DNA from: Thioalkalivibrio sp. XN8
GTDB taxonomy: Bacteria > Pseudomonadota > Gammaproteobacteria > Steroidobacterales > XN24
DNA length: 64,000 nucleotides
Assembly (NCBI RefSeq): GCF_011058255.1
Contig: NZ_JAALFH010000060.1
Span: 62,001 to 126,000, forward strand
Direction: 5' to 3'
Part shown: positions 6,576-10,513 of the stretch, piece by piece
Numbering within the stretch: the stretch's first letter is position 1
How the letters are laid out: every line of letters begins with the position of its first letter
Position numbers and translations under genes: made by a program
The notes under the pieces: model-generated
What the model was told of the DNA's origin: nothing
Databases searched by the model: none
Seen by the model: the letters and a program-made list of their open reading frames with translations, nothing else

Positions 6576-8339
6576 ATGAGTTTGTTTAACTTCTCCCGCC
6601 TGACACCCTTCGAGCGCCTGCTTTCGGGCCTGACGGCCGTCCGGCCGGGCGAAGGCCGCGGCATCTTCCTGATGCTGGCGCAGATCTTCCTGCTGATGTT
6701 CGGCTACTACCTGCTGCGCCCGCTGCGCGAGGCCCTGATTCTCGCCGAGGGCTCGCCGGAGGTGCGCGCCTACGCCACCGGCGCGGTCGCGCTGGTACTG
6801 ATTTTCATTATTCCGCTGTACAAGATGCTGTTCGATTACCTCAAGCAGGGCGGCCGGAAGTCGGCCGTGCTGCGCTGGGTCGGCAGCTTCTTCATCACCA
6901 ACCTGCTGTTTTTCGCCCTGCTGGTGTGGCTCGACGTGCCCGTCGCCGTGCCCTTCTACATCTGGCTCGGCGTGTTCAGCGTGATGGTCGTGGCGCAGTT
7001 CTGGGCCTTCGCTGCAGACCTGTTCAACGTCAAGACCGGCCAGCGGCTGTTCGCCCTGATCATGGTCGGTGCCGCCCTCGGCGCCTGGCTCGGCAGCCAG
7101 GTTGCGGGCACCCTGTTCGCGCTGCTGGGCACGCCGCGGCTGATGCTGCTGGCGGCCCTGCTGCTGAGCGGCGCCCTGTATCTCAGCCGCAAGGCCGAGC
7201 GGGCGGTACCCGAGGGCTCGCGCAGCCTGCCGACCCGAGCTGTCGCCAGCGAGCCGGCCGGCCTGGCGCAGGTGCTCGCCGGCTTCCAGGTCGTGCTGCG
7301 CAGCGGTTACCTGCTGCGCATCGCGGTGTTCGTGCTGCTCCTGAACTGGGTCAATTCCACCGGCCAGTACATTCTCGCCACCTTCGCCAGCGAGTACGCG
7401 GGGGAGGCCGTCGCGGCCAGCGCCGGCGCGCTCACCATCGGCGAGGTGCTGGCCCGCTTCTACGGCAACTTCTACGCCTGGGTCACCGCGCTGCAGATCG
7501 GGCTGCAACTGTTCCTGGTGTCGCGAATCTTCCGCTGGGTCGGGGTGCGCGGCGCGATCCTGGTGCTGCCGCTGGTCATGCTGGCGAGCTACGGCCTGAT
7601 CTACCTCGTGCCGGTGTTCGCGCTGGTGCGCCTGATGATGATCGCCGAGAGCGCCGCGAACTATTCGATCCAGAACACCACCAACCACGCCCTCTACCTG
7701 CCCGTCACGCGGGACGAGAAATACATCGGCAAGACCACGGTCGACACTTTCTTCGTCCGCTTCGGCGACCTGGTCTACGCGGGCATGATCCTGCTCACGG
7801 CCGAGCTCCTGGGCCTGGATGTAGGCGCCATCACCGCCATCAACATCGGCCTGTCAGTGGTGCTGATCTACCTGGGCACCGCCATCGGCCGCCACCACCG
7901 CAAGGAGATCCGCCAGAACCTGGCCAACCTCCCGCCGGTGGTGAACACGCGCTTGCCCGATGTGTACGTGCCGGCCGGCCAGATGCTGGTCTTCACGGTG
8001 CCCGAGCATGCCTTCATGGACCCCGACCCGGGCGATGCCCTGCGCTTCCAGGCCGGCTGCGCGGACGGCAGCCCGCTGCCCGGCTGGGTGCGCTTCGACC
8101 CCTTCAACCACAGCTTCACCATACGGCCGCCGGCGGGTGAACAGGACACGCTCGAGATCACGGTGTCGGCCACCGACTTCGAAGGACTGAGCGTGGAGTC
8201 AGGCTTTTCGATCAGCTACGGGCCGGACCCGGTGCCGCGCTTCATCGCAGTCCCCGGAGCGCCTGGGCCCGGCTCACCAGGGCATCCAGCTGCCGCCGAT
8301 GCAGGTACGGTCGCAGCGGCTCCAGCTGCTCGGCAGTGA
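6576..8339 (+). CDS. Nucleotide-exchange (TLC/Npt)-like membrane transporter with C-terminal CADG domain
   Basis: A 587-residue protein. Residues 1-445 or so form about twelve hydrophobic segments. Features recall ATP/ADP translocases of the TLC/Npt class found in some free-living bacteria: FGYYLLRPLREAL in the first helix, QFWAFAADLFNVKTGQRLF, and a late NYSIQNTTNHALYLPVTRDEKY loop. The substrate is unknown. After the last helix comes a soluble tail, about residues 460-560: LPDVYVPAGQMLVFTVPEHAF, then DGSPLPGWVRFDP and LEITVSATDFEGLSVESGFSISY. This is the pattern of a dystroglycan/cadherin-like (CADG) domain, normally extracellular. The end overlaps the convergent phosphatase-kinase gene by 98 bases. 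The final 35 residues are low complexity and may be incidental. Confidence 0.72.
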   Translation: MSLFNFSRLTPFERLLSGLTAVRPGEGRGIFLMLAQIFLLMFGYYLLRPLREALILAEGSPEVRAYATGAVALVLIFIIPLYKMLFDYLKQGGRKSAVLRWVGSFFITNLLFFALLVWLDVPVAVPFYIWLGVFSVMVVAQFWAFAADLFNVKTGQRLFALIMVGAALGAWLGSQVAGTLFALLGTPRLMLLAALLLSGALYLSRKAERAVPEGSRSLPTRAVASEPAGLAQVLAGFQVVLRSGYLLRIAVFVLLLNWVNSTGQYILATFASEYAGEAVAASAGALTIGEVLARFYGNFYAWVTALQIGLQLFLVSRIFRWVGVRGAILVLPLVMLASYGLIYLVPVFALVRLMMIAESAANYSIQNTTNHALYLPVTRDEKYIGKTTVDTFFVRFGDLVYAGMILLTAELLGLDVGAITAINIGLSVVLIYLGTAIGRHHRKEIRQNLANLPPVVNTRLPDVYVPAGQMLVFTVPEHAFMDPDPGDALRFQAGCADGSPLPGWVRFDPFNHSFTIRPPAGEQDTLEITVSATDFEGLSVESGFSISYGPDPVPRFIAVPGAPGPGSPGHPAAADAGTVAAAPAARQ

Positions 8340-9969
8340 CCCGCGCAAGCGCGGCGTCCAGCTCCGGCGTCAGCTGCACCTGCGCGTCCTCGAGCATCGC
8401 CGGAACGCCGCGCTCGGTGCCGAAGGCGCGGCTGTGGTCGATCAGCCAGACCTGGTGGCGCTCGTCGTACAGCACGTTGCCCAGGTTCCGGTCGACATTG
8501 AAAATCAGCAGGTCGAACACGTTCATCAGGTTGAACTGGGCCGCGATGCTGCAGCCGGTCTGCAGCGCCATGCCCCGCTCGCGCCGCTTGCCCTCGTGGA
8601 AGCTGTCCGGCAGCCAGTACTGCAGGGTGCCGGCTTGCCCGTCGAGTTCGCGCGTGACTGCCACCGGGACCATCTCGAGACCCAGCATCCGGTCCAGCCG
8701 GTAAGCGACCAGGTCGTAGATGTGGCGGTCCGCCCGGTCGGCCGCGCGCGACCAACGCCGCGTGCTCTCCAGGCCCGGATCGGTGTCGACCGTCTTGAAC
8801 ACGCCCTGCATCACTTTCCCGTCCCGCTCCAGCGTCAGGCGCAGCGGGCGCGTGACGCCCTCGCCCAGCTCCTCGACCCGGGTGACCGGCGCCGTCCGCA
8901 GGAAGTCCTCGATCTCGGCGTCGCTCATGCCGTAGGGCCGGTCCCACAGCCGGGCCGGCTCGGCCTCCACCACGCGGGACCCCTCGCCCGGGTAGTGGGC
9001 CAGCACGGTGCCGTCGCTGATGTCCAGGGCGACGGCCCGGCCCTGGTAGGCGGCGCGGTTCATGCCGGCGTCGACGCGATAGACCATCCCGCCGAGGCGC
9101 GAGGTCGCCCGGCGGCTCTCCGTCGGCGTGTGGCCGATGACCACGCGAGCCGCGCCGAGTTCCTCGAGGATCCCGCGCAGCACGGGCGCCTCGGCCCAGG
9201 CGTGGCAACGCGCGTTGCCACGGTACCAGGCGACGCCGTCCGGATGGAACGGCAGTCCTTCGAGCGCCTCCGCCGGCAAGCGGTCCCGCAGCTCGTGGAA
9301 GGTGGTCTCGTCTGCGACCACGCCGGCGGCAAGCAGCGCGTGCCAGCCCTCCGTCACCGTGCGCAGGTCCTCTTTCGCGCCGGTGTTGATCGCGGCGAGC
9401 GACAGCCCCTCGACGCGCGACGACAGCCCGCCGTGCACGAACAGCGTGTCGTTGATCACGATGGCAAAGGGCAGCGACAGCAGCCAGCGCCCGTAGGCGC
9501 CGTCAGGCCGGAAAGCCGCGCGGCGCTCGAAGAAGCCCGCCGGGAAGCCGGTGCGTGTCGCGGCGCCGAACTGGGCGTAGTCTCCTTGGCTGACATAGCG
9601 CAGGTCGTTCACCAGGCTCATCACCTCGTGGTTGCCGAGCAGCACGTGCACTGCTCCGCCCGCCGCCGCGGCCTCCTGCTGCAGGCGCATCAGCAGGTCC
9701 ATGACCTGGCGGCCGTAATCGCCCCGGCCGAGCAGGTCGCCCATGGAGACGAGGTGCGTGGCGCCGCCGGCCCATCGGCCCTCGGCATCGACCAGGCCGA
9801 CGTCTGCCAGCAGTGCCTGCAACTCCTCGTACGCACCGTGCACGTCGCCGACGGCCACCACGCGCTCGACGCCCTCGATGCGCCAGGATTCAGTCGCGAC
9901 CGCCGGCAGCGCGGCGAGCAACCAGCAGGCGAGAACCGGCCAGGCCGTCTTCAGCAGTGACGGGCGCAT
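8242..9969 (-). CDS. Exported calcineurin-like phosphatase fused to a PI3K/Fam20C-like kinase core
   Basis: A 575-residue protein. A signal peptide (LACWLLAALPAVATES) should send it to the periplasm or beyond. Residues 37-320 or so form a metallophosphoesterase: GDVHG (41-45), GDLLGRG (77-83, with Gly where PPP enzymes usually have Asp), GNHE (112-115), FVHGG (177-181) and GHTPT (279-283). From about residue 380 a second module has a VFKTVDTD strand, whose Lys could hold ATP. It then has DLLIFNVDRNLGNVLYDE and QVWLIDHSRAFG. The Asp493-Arg-x3-Asn498 and Ile-Asp511 pattern matches the catalytic and metal-binding loops of PI3/4-kinase-like and Fam20C-like kinases. It is last in the rsmD-coaD-ggt run. 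The substrates are unknown. The phosphatase half is sure; the kinase call is inference from motifs. Confidence 0.75.
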   Translation of the reverse strand: MRPSLLKTAWPVLACWLLAALPAVATESWRIEGVERVVAVGDVHGAYEELQALLADVGLVDAEGRWAGGATHLVSMGDLLGRGDYGRQVMDLLMRLQQEAAAAGGAVHVLLGNHEVMSLVNDLRYVSQGDYAQFGAATRTGFPAGFFERRAAFRPDGAYGRWLLSLPFAIVINDTLFVHGGLSSRVEGLSLAAINTGAKEDLRTVTEGWHALLAAGVVADETTFHELRDRLPAEALEGLPFHPDGVAWYRGNARCHAWAEAPVLRGILEELGAARVVIGHTPTESRRATSRLGGMVYRVDAGMNRAAYQGRAVALDISDGTVLAHYPGEGSRVVEAEPARLWDRPYGMSDAEIEDFLRTAPVTRVEELGEGVTRPLRLTLERDGKVMQGVFKTVDTDPGLESTRRWSRAADRADRHIYDLVAYRLDRMLGLEMVPVAVTRELDGQAGTLQYWLPDSFHEGKRRERGMALQTGCSIAAQFNLMNVFDLLIFNVDRNLGNVLYDERHQVWLIDHSRAFGTERGVPAMLEDAQVQLTPELDAALARVTAEQLEPLRPYLHRRQLDALVSRAQALRGLR

Positions 9970-9979
9970 GCGCTTTCCC

Positions 9980-10513
9980 TCAGTCGAGCTCGGGATGGCC
10001 CCACGGCGCGGGCGGCGCGGGGACCGGGGCCGACAGGTCGAATTCCACGCGGAACAGGCGTCCCGAGGGACGCGACAGCTCGTAGACGAAGCGCCCGACC
10101 GGCGTGATCTCCAGCGCCCAGGTGTTCTGCACCGAGGCGGTCAGCCCTTCGCGCTCGAACAGCCGCACCGAGTACTCGTCCGCCGGGAACTCCTGGCGCC
10201 ACGGCATGCCGGGGTCCACAGTGTCGCCGCCGTACTGCGTGACCGCGTCCTCGCTGCCGTCCTCGTGGCGATGATCGTGCTTCAGCCGGAGGCCCTGGGC
10301 GGTGCGGGTCAGCACCCAGGTGCGGCTGCGGTCGTCGCCCACGTGGAAGGGGATCTTCAGCTCGGTGGCCGAGCATTCGCGGACGTGCATGACCAGCGCC
10401 TGGTCGGCGAAAGGGTCGTCCGGCTGGGCCGGGTCGTTGGCGACGATGCGGCCGGCGAAAGCCTGCCCGCAGTAGCGGGCGATGCGGGCCATGAAGGCGT
10501 CGGGCGGATTCAT
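9980..10513 (-). CDS. Conserved uncharacterised protein
   Basis: A 177-residue soluble protein with no signal peptide that I can see. I recognise it as a conserved gammaproteobacterial family without a named function. Its core reads LVMHVRECSATELKIPFHVG, then RSRTWVLTRTAQGLRLKHDH, DAVTQYGGDT and AGRFVYELSRP-like strands, suggesting a beta-rich, lipocalin-like fold. Its ATG lies 17 bases after ggt and its end lies 10 bases before the phosphatase-kinase start. It is therefore probably co-transcribed with both. Confidence 0.75.
   Translation of the reverse strand: MNPPDAFMARIARYCGQAFAGRIVANDPAQPDDPFADQALVMHVRECSATELKIPFHVGDDRSRTWVLTRTAQGLRLKHDHRHEDGSEDAVTQYGGDTVDPGMPWRQEFPADEYSVRLFEREGLTASVQNTWALEITPVGRFVYELSRPSGRLFRVEFDLSAPVPAPPAPWGHPELD

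Follow-up and report, generated by a model that had tools for sequence, protein, structure and literature searches.

Can phosphorylation chemistry take place outside the bacterial cytoplasm, phosphate being added and removed by one and the same polypeptide? The question is raised by a gene of Thioalkalivibrio sp. XN8 located in a stretch of 64,000 nucleotides (contig NZ_JAALFH010000060.1, positions 62,001 to 126,000), called the window hereafter, with positions counted from its first letter. The reading frame runs without interruption on the minus strand, from an ATG at 9969 to a stop at 8242, and its product of 575 residues would be an exported enzyme in which a metallophosphatase precedes a kinase of the Fam20/PI3K fold. 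Because the gene of this exported phosphatase-kinase adjoins that of an ATP/ADP-carrier-like transporter, the locus suggests that some bacteria may run phosphorylation chemistry outside the cytoplasm. The parts of the gene to which the text refers are as follows.

8242-9969, minus strand: whole fusion gene, Shelph phosphatase–Fam20-like kinase, predicted to be exported (575 amino acids)
9892-9969, minus strand: predicted N-terminal signal peptide, about residues 1-26, MRPSLLKTAWPVLACWLLAALPAVAT; read by eye from a hydrophobic core and an AxA-like site
8971-9864, minus strand: PPP (phosphoprotein phosphatase) metallophosphatase domain of the Shewanella-like (Shelph) group, residues 36-333; from Pfam, PDB and Foldseek
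9727-9729, minus strand: codon 81, Gly in place of the near-universal Asp of GDxxDRG; from the homologue alignment
9205-9207, minus strand: Cys255, phosphatase domain, predicted partner of Cys473; from family conservation
8245-8967, minus strand: predicted Fam20/PI3K-fold kinase domain, residues 335-575; from the structural model, Foldseek and the family profile
8794-8796, minus strand: Lys392, predicted ATP lysine (VFK); in 56/56 kinase-intact homologues and 5/39 others
8551-8553, minus strand: Cys473, kinase domain, predicted interdomain disulfide partner; from family conservation
8491-8493, minus strand: Asp493, predicted catalytic Asp (DRxxxN); in 56/95 homologues
8476-8478, minus strand: Asn498, predicted catalytic-loop Asn; from the homologue alignment
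8437-8439, minus strand: Asp511, predicted metal Asp (IDHS); from the homologue alignment

A fusion of two enzyme domains

AlphaFold2 (AF2) gave a full-length model that is confident across both domains, with a predicted local distance difference test (pLDDT) of 93.9 and a predicted template modelling score (pTM) of 0.91. N-termini are hydrophobic throughout the fusion family, and we infer that the protein is exported by the Sec route. A frameshift or the mis-joining of two genes was considered as the origin of the fusion and rejected, because the same fusion recurs across many genomes. No description of a fusion between a phosphatase and a Fam20-like kinase was found in the open-access literature, subscription journals lying outside the search. 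AceK and HPr kinase/phosphorylase also hold opposing phosphate activities in one polypeptide. These enzymes work in the cytoplasm with a single site or a single domain, whereas the window protein is made of two unrelated domains and would be exported.

The kinase half

A first-pass annotation of the window had compared the C-terminal module with PI3K- and Fam20C-like kinases, on the basis of an Asp-Arg-x3-Asn, an Ile-Asp-His and a late FG. These motifs are all in place (NVDRNLGN at 491-498, with Asp493 and Asn498; IDHS at 510-513, with Asp511; FG at 516-517), and the proposed layout is borne out in two ways. A profile built from 49 sequences of the domain matches FAM20A (6e-9), a Fam20B-type kinase (7.5e-8) and FAM20C (6e-5) in the PDB. 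The structure prediction and fold search that had been called for gave, for residues 335-575, an AF2 model with a pLDDT of 91.7 and a pTM of 0.90, whose best Foldseek match is Fam20C (5yh0, 1e-8), with a template modelling score relative to the query (TMq) of 0.67. The 13 highest matches are all Fam20 structures (TMq 0.61-0.68), PI3K and PI4KII ranking after them, and it is because of this order that the modelled region is assigned a PI3K/Fam20-type kinase fold. Chance occurrence of the motifs is ruled out by the family profile and the predicted fold.

It is the family profile and the fold that settle the identity of the domain, since searches of Pfam, NCBIfam and, with the single sequence, the PDB stayed below their thresholds. 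With the C-terminal part alone, Pfam returned HipA_2, PI3_PI4_kinase and Fam20C, the last with 10.9 bits for a curated cut-off of 26.8, and NCBIfam returned TIGR03843 (5e-11), likewise under its cut-off. Because they fall under curated cut-offs, the HipA_2, PI3_PI4_kinase and TIGR03843 matches are not taken as membership. PI3/PI4 kinases, HipA_2 and the TIGR03843 proteins (SCO1664) belong to the same kinase superfamily, as the sub-threshold matches at the catalytic loop indicate. They are not exported fusions, unlike the window protein.

With Fam20A, Fam20B and Fam20C the window kinase shares the fold, sequence similarity at the profile level, the DRxxxN motif, the metal Asp and a non-cytosolic setting, the export of the window protein being predicted. 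It differs from them in being bacterial, fused to a phosphatase and shorter, and in carrying IDHS at the metal site. Moreover, Fam20 has four disulfides (PMC5865150), whereas the window kinase domain has a single Cys. Because the Pfam cut-off is missed and one Cys replaces the four disulfides, the kinase half is not counted as a member of the Fam20 family. In the network of PMC9758233, FAM20 forms a eukaryote- or Metazoa-specific cluster.

The phosphatase half

The motifs quoted for the phosphatase in the first-pass annotation are likewise found: GDVHG at 41-45, GNHE at 112-115, HGG at 179-181 and GHTPT at 279-283, to which GDLLGRG at 77-83 may be added. Pfam Metallophos matches residues 36-282 (E=8e-14). 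Among solved structures, the Shewanella cold-active phosphatase (2z72/1v73) is the nearest, with 3e-31 for the single sequence and 4e-56 for the profile, and this enzyme also tops the Foldseek list of the full-length model (1e-21). Because this is the nearest relative in sequence and fold, the domain is placed in the Shelph group described in PMC535813. The fold and motifs of Shelph/SLP phosphatases (cold-active phosphatase I, 1v73, 2z72) are shared by residues 33-302, and the window protein also shows the insertion that PMC535813 reports for Shelphs between GNHE and HGG. The set of Shelph metal ligands (GDxH, GD, GNH, H, H) is complete: Asp42, His44, Asp78, Asn113, His114, His179 and His280. 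Two differences concern the published motifs: the window protein has Gly81 for the Asp of GDxxDRG, and VDAG where Shelphs show (I/L/V)D(S/T)G (PMC535813). The latter, a bacterial-like PPP motif, is D(S/T)G in most homologues. The solved Shewanella enzyme has no kinase domain, whereas the window protein has one fused to it.

The replacement of Asp by Gly in GDxxDRG, already remarked upon in the first reading, deserves attention. In PPP enzymes, the Asp of the Asp-His dyad orients the catalytic His. This Asp is absent from the window protein and present in nearly all homologues. Among 86 tree rows, the wholly dead paralogue L080x being set aside, residues other than Asp at position 81 are limited to L001 (Gly), L002 (Asn), L021 (His) and L022 and L023 (Ser). 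The replacement is confined to a small clade around the window, in members whose kinase is intact. Conversely, a protein of the same genus (G002/L003) is the sole member of this clade retaining Asp81, yet its kinase site is lost. These opposite states are suggestive, in a small sample. Outside the clade, phosphatase residues are close to invariant in the family. Since Asp81 would orient the catalytic His, the phosphatase of the window may be weak, and the protein perhaps chiefly a kinase. As a separate observation, the kinase-intact fusion L006 has ADVSG for GDVHG, so that the metal ligand His44 is gone.

What the two halves act on may also be asked at this point. The kinase half could target a glycan, a lipid or a small envelope molecule, as Fam20B does with xylose, and the phosphatase reverse the reaction; the protein would then be an envelope-modifying enzyme and not a protein-signalling switch. 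Fam20B-type kinases are among the best profile matches and hydra Fam20 among the best Foldseek matches, and PI3K and PI4K, which have the same fold, are lipid kinases. In animals, the glycan kinase activity of Fam20B predates Fam20C (PMC5865150). However, the phosphatase half is nearest to an enzyme deposited as a protein-tyrosine phosphatase, and sugar or lipid genes are not constant among the neighbours of the fusion. On balance, a glycan, lipid or small-molecule substrate is regarded as unlikely, though it keeps an appreciable share of the probability.

A conserved pair of cysteines

Cys255 and Cys473 are both present in 93/95 homologues and both missing in L048 and L090. Exactly two Cys follow the signal region in 92/95 homologues, one per domain. 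Because nearly all members show this pattern, an interdomain disulfide between Cys255 and Cys473 is likely. The pattern also fits an oxidising location of the protein, with a disulfide between its halves.

Distribution of the fusion and fate of the kinase site

The survey of the fused architecture that the first-pass annotation had recommended shows conservation of the fusion across many Gammaproteobacteria. Matches occur in 33/59 related genomes, about 28 being the fusion and a few other metallophosphatases; a search of genome contigs gave 332 candidates, of which 80 were kept. The fusion is found in Halieaceae, Woeseiaceae, Steroidobacteraceae, Lysobacter, Shewanella and Thalassotalea, as well as in some metagenome-assembled genomes (MAGs) labelled Acidobacteria and in alphaproteobacterial groups. 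The family is not class-wide, because only 2/184 genomes drawn evenly from the class show a strong kinase-domain match. The metallophosphatases found on plasmids were all unrelated to the fusion.

In a set of 95 homologues that includes near-duplicates, Lys392, Asp493, Asn498 and Asp511 are all kept in 56. The other 39 have Asp493 replaced in every case and Lys392 in 34. The residues of the kinase site thus stay or disappear together. On a tree built from the phosphatase part only, the alternation between intact and lost kinase takes nine changes, at least three of which well supported branches make unavoidable; the count falls to six when the long-branch L080 paralogue is left out. Loss of the kinase site is therefore spread over several lineages.

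Two other roles of the C-terminal domain may be envisaged from these data. In the first, the domain would carry out another nucleotide transfer (AMPylation, glutamylation) or would sense nucleotide in order to control the phosphatase. Kinase-fold families such as SelO and SidJ perform such chemistry, the kinase site has repeatedly been lost without loss of the domain fold or of either Cys, as would fit a regulatory role, and no periplasmic ATP pool is known to us. Against this idea, which is judged improbable, the canonical Lys, Asp, Asn and Asp are kept together in 56 homologues, as expected of ordinary phosphotransfer, and the canonical residues also occur in standalone kinases adjoining kinase-dead fusions (see below). 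In the second, the protein would essentially be a secreted phosphatase with a structural relic at its C-terminus, and the transporter and kinase-like neighbours would reflect shared synteny only. Absence of the kinase site from 39/95 homologues, the near invariance of the phosphatase residues and the concentration of kinase-dead loci in few lineages, with sister tests underpowered, all go in this direction. However, the four kinase residues are retained in groups as distant as Halieaceae, Lysobacter and Shewanella, among others, the catalytic residue lost in the window belongs to the phosphatase and not to the kinase, the two L080 paralogues have opposite halves dead, and the transporter co-occurs with the fusion even where the two genes are unlinked. 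A mere relic is accordingly given a small probability.

Separate kinase or kinase-like genes beside kinase-dead fusions

What accompanies a fusion whose kinase site is lost? Six-frame translations of the named loci (33 kinase-dead, 43 kinase-intact) were scanned with profiles. A separate exported kinase or kinase-like gene adjoins the fusion in 27/33 kinase-dead loci, as against 2/43 kinase-intact ones (Fisher 1e-12, kinship uncorrected). Three kinds of gene are involved.

The first comprises standalone relatives of the fused domain, which as a group match the fused kinase domain by profile with 99.8% probability (1.3e-28). They are intact at DRxxxN/IDHS in L069 (9225-10208) and L071 (9280-10260), from Aestuariibacter and Thalassotalea, and read D....N/(I,V)DN in L079 and G002; in L076 the relative, of the L079 type, is truncated. 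In G002, from the window's genus, the standalone kinase lies about 0.9 kb upstream of the dead fusion on the same strand. Shewanella sp. UCD-KL21 (L062) carries an intact fusion together with a standalone exported Fam20-like kinase (7902-8855), and could represent an intermediate state. The second kind is a second fusion paralogue, in L080, a Kangiellaceae MAG: one paralogue has live phosphatase motifs and a dead kinase, and the 582-residue open reading frame downstream has an intact kinase and every phosphatase motif destroyed.

The third kind, called A4, lies beside kinase-dead fusions in 22 loci, in several orientations, and in no kinase-intact locus (examples among L063-L100, such as L091:1606-2688). 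These are exported proteins with the motifs RG, K, E, IGNTD, CCHN and PYDFD, and with no Pfam family of their own. Their resemblance to CotH spore-coat kinases, which concerns this separate gene and not the fused domain, is weak: hhalign gives 66% (E=5.6e-5) with the CotH profile, and Pfam CotH matches 3/18 members, the best at 0.0013. A search of A4 against the PDB gave no match, and the profile comparison of A4 with the fused kinase domain gave a weak 2%.

Where a fusion has lost its kinase site and a separate kinase lies next to it, the arrangement looks like a division of labour. The loss of Asp493 and Asn498 in close homologues, which had been named as telling against a kinase, does occur within the genus of the window (G002/L003, where the four positions read N, V, T and D). 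Because a separate exported kinase gene adjoins it, this dead fusion is not counted as evidence against the kinase. Since most kinase-dead loci have a separate kinase or kinase-like gene nearby and the L080 paralogues have opposite halves dead, these arrangements suggest that both activities are wanted together.

A transporter related to ATP/ADP carriers

If the kinase acts outside the cytoplasm, where would its nucleotide come from? A candidate is encoded next to the fusion.

6576-8339, plus strand: TLC/NTT transporter resembling ATP/ADP carriers, with an Ig-like domain at its C-terminus; convergent with the fusion gene, which its 3′ end overlaps by 98 bases

Pfam recognises TLC (2.3e-7, 30.5 bits for a cut-off of 21) and, over its cut-off, the Ig-like He_PIG (1.7e-8). 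The transporter family profile matches the NTT structures 9j3n (1.6e-21) and 9j3j (4.5e-15) and, over the tail, dystroglycan Ig-like domains (7.6e-8). The neighbour is thus homologous to NTT/TLC ATP/ADP carriers (9j3n, 9j3j) and differs from them by a change at a conserved Lys, by its dystroglycan-related tail and by its gene linkage to an exported kinase. NTT genes are widespread in free-living bacteria, where their functions are unknown, and the fusions reported for them are to HEAT and cNBD domains (PMC5381601).

This transporter is the commonest neighbour of the fusion (33 named loci, at a median of 43 bases), and is convergent with it in many lineages. It is next door in 27/43 kinase-intact and 5/33 kinase-dead loci (p 5e-5, uncorrected). 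Four of the latter five have a separate kinase or a kinase-intact paralogue, and the fifth, L098, is at a contig end. For whole genomes, Pfam TLC missed divergent carriers and the transporter family profile was used instead. Its high-scoring form is present in 11/14 kinase-intact genomes (two of the 11 being contig-end pieces, and the three genomes without it 79-81% complete), in 3/14 kinase-dead genomes and in 1/31 relatives without a detected kinase domain. The three kinase-dead genomes are G002, which has the standalone kinase, and G014 and G027, which have A4 genes; the single relative, G048, carries a partial phosphatase at the edge of a contig. The full-length form is found in 12 genomes, every one of which carries the fusion, and in G004, G009, G015 and G028 the transporter form is present without being linked to the fusion. 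Because its special form accompanies 11/14 kinase-intact genomes and 1/31 genomes without a detected kinase domain, the transporter is a candidate ATP source for the exported kinase.

Two further observations concern the surroundings of the fusion. In the Halieaceae loci L038, L050, L052, L056 and L057, two tandem TLC-like genes lie downstream, of which one follows the fusion and the other converges with it. In the window, upstream of the fusion gene, positions 9983-10513 of the minus strand encode a 177-residue protein with no Pfam match.

Proposed mechanism

Considering these data together, the following scheme may be proposed. An exported two-domain enzyme, presumably translocated by Sec, would join a PPP metallophosphatase to a Fam20/PI3K-fold kinase, the two domains probably being held together by the Cys255-Cys473 disulfide. 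The kinase half would transfer phosphate from a nucleotide, probably supplied by the neighbouring TLC/NTT-family transporter, to a cell-envelope substrate, and the phosphatase half would take phosphate off the same substrate or off one of the same pathway. In some lineages, the fused kinase site would have decayed and the work would be divided with the separate exported kinase or kinase-like gene alongside. In the window protein, the balance of activities would probably lean towards the kinase, because the kinase site is complete while the phosphatase is without Asp81. As a whole, this scheme is considered reasonably probable. The self-contained switch of the first-pass annotation survives in part: a predicted-exported phosphatase-kinase fusion with its site residues stands, and switching, a shared substrate and self-containment go beyond the evidence.

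Several points weigh against the scheme. To our knowledge, no ATP pool is known in the periplasm, and periplasmic ATP is not established. Most loci with a separate kinase are A4 loci, that is, of a family weakly linked to kinases, and when A4 is excluded the full-flank contrast vanishes (2/23 against 2/36), so that the argument for separate kinases rests on individual cases. Sister pairs, too few for significance, gave 1.9 for a separate kinase and 0 against (three starred pairs), and showed no independent signal for the transporter. The latter is a divergent NTT homologue, and its cargo and direction are conjectural; the Lys of TKEMAYIP is Asn in the window (TTNHALYLP) and Arg in most of the family. 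The transporter is not adjacent in 16/43 kinase-intact loci, and the family profile finds TLC-core genes in 53/59 relatives, many without the fusion, so that the long, Ig-tailed form alone is informative.

The same facts bear on the possibility that the TLC-like neighbour has nothing to do with the kinase and imports nucleotides or metabolites for salvage. The frequency of TLC-core genes among the relatives, the lack of a sister-pair signal and the alteration of a residue conserved in NTT carriers are all compatible with it. On the other hand, full-length transporters bearing the Ig-like tail are nearly restricted to fusion genomes (12/12), and the convergent arrangement recurs in many lineages. 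Import for salvage is thus a serious possibility, on the lesser side of an even chance. The wider form of the preferred scheme, in which many Gammaproteobacteria would run an ATP-driven cycle of phosphorylation and dephosphorylation outside the cytoplasm, with a Fam20-like kinase and a Shelph phosphatase, either fused and disulfide-locked or split over adjoining genes, and a dedicated NTT-type ATP exporter, is put forward tentatively, with the chances leaning against it.

Implications

If the scheme is true, many environmental Gammaproteobacteria would be permanently equipped to phosphorylate proteins or glycans of their envelope, and a cycle run by an exported kinase and an exported phosphatase would stand as a bacterial equivalent of the Fam20 system of the animal Golgi. 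The NTT-family carriers of free-living bacteria would in this case gain a possible role. A candidate carrier beside the gene makes the ATP source of a periplasmic kinase a testable question. Finally, the recurrent decay of the fused kinase site next to another gene for a kinase or kinase-like protein offers a natural experiment on the fusion and fission of enzymes.

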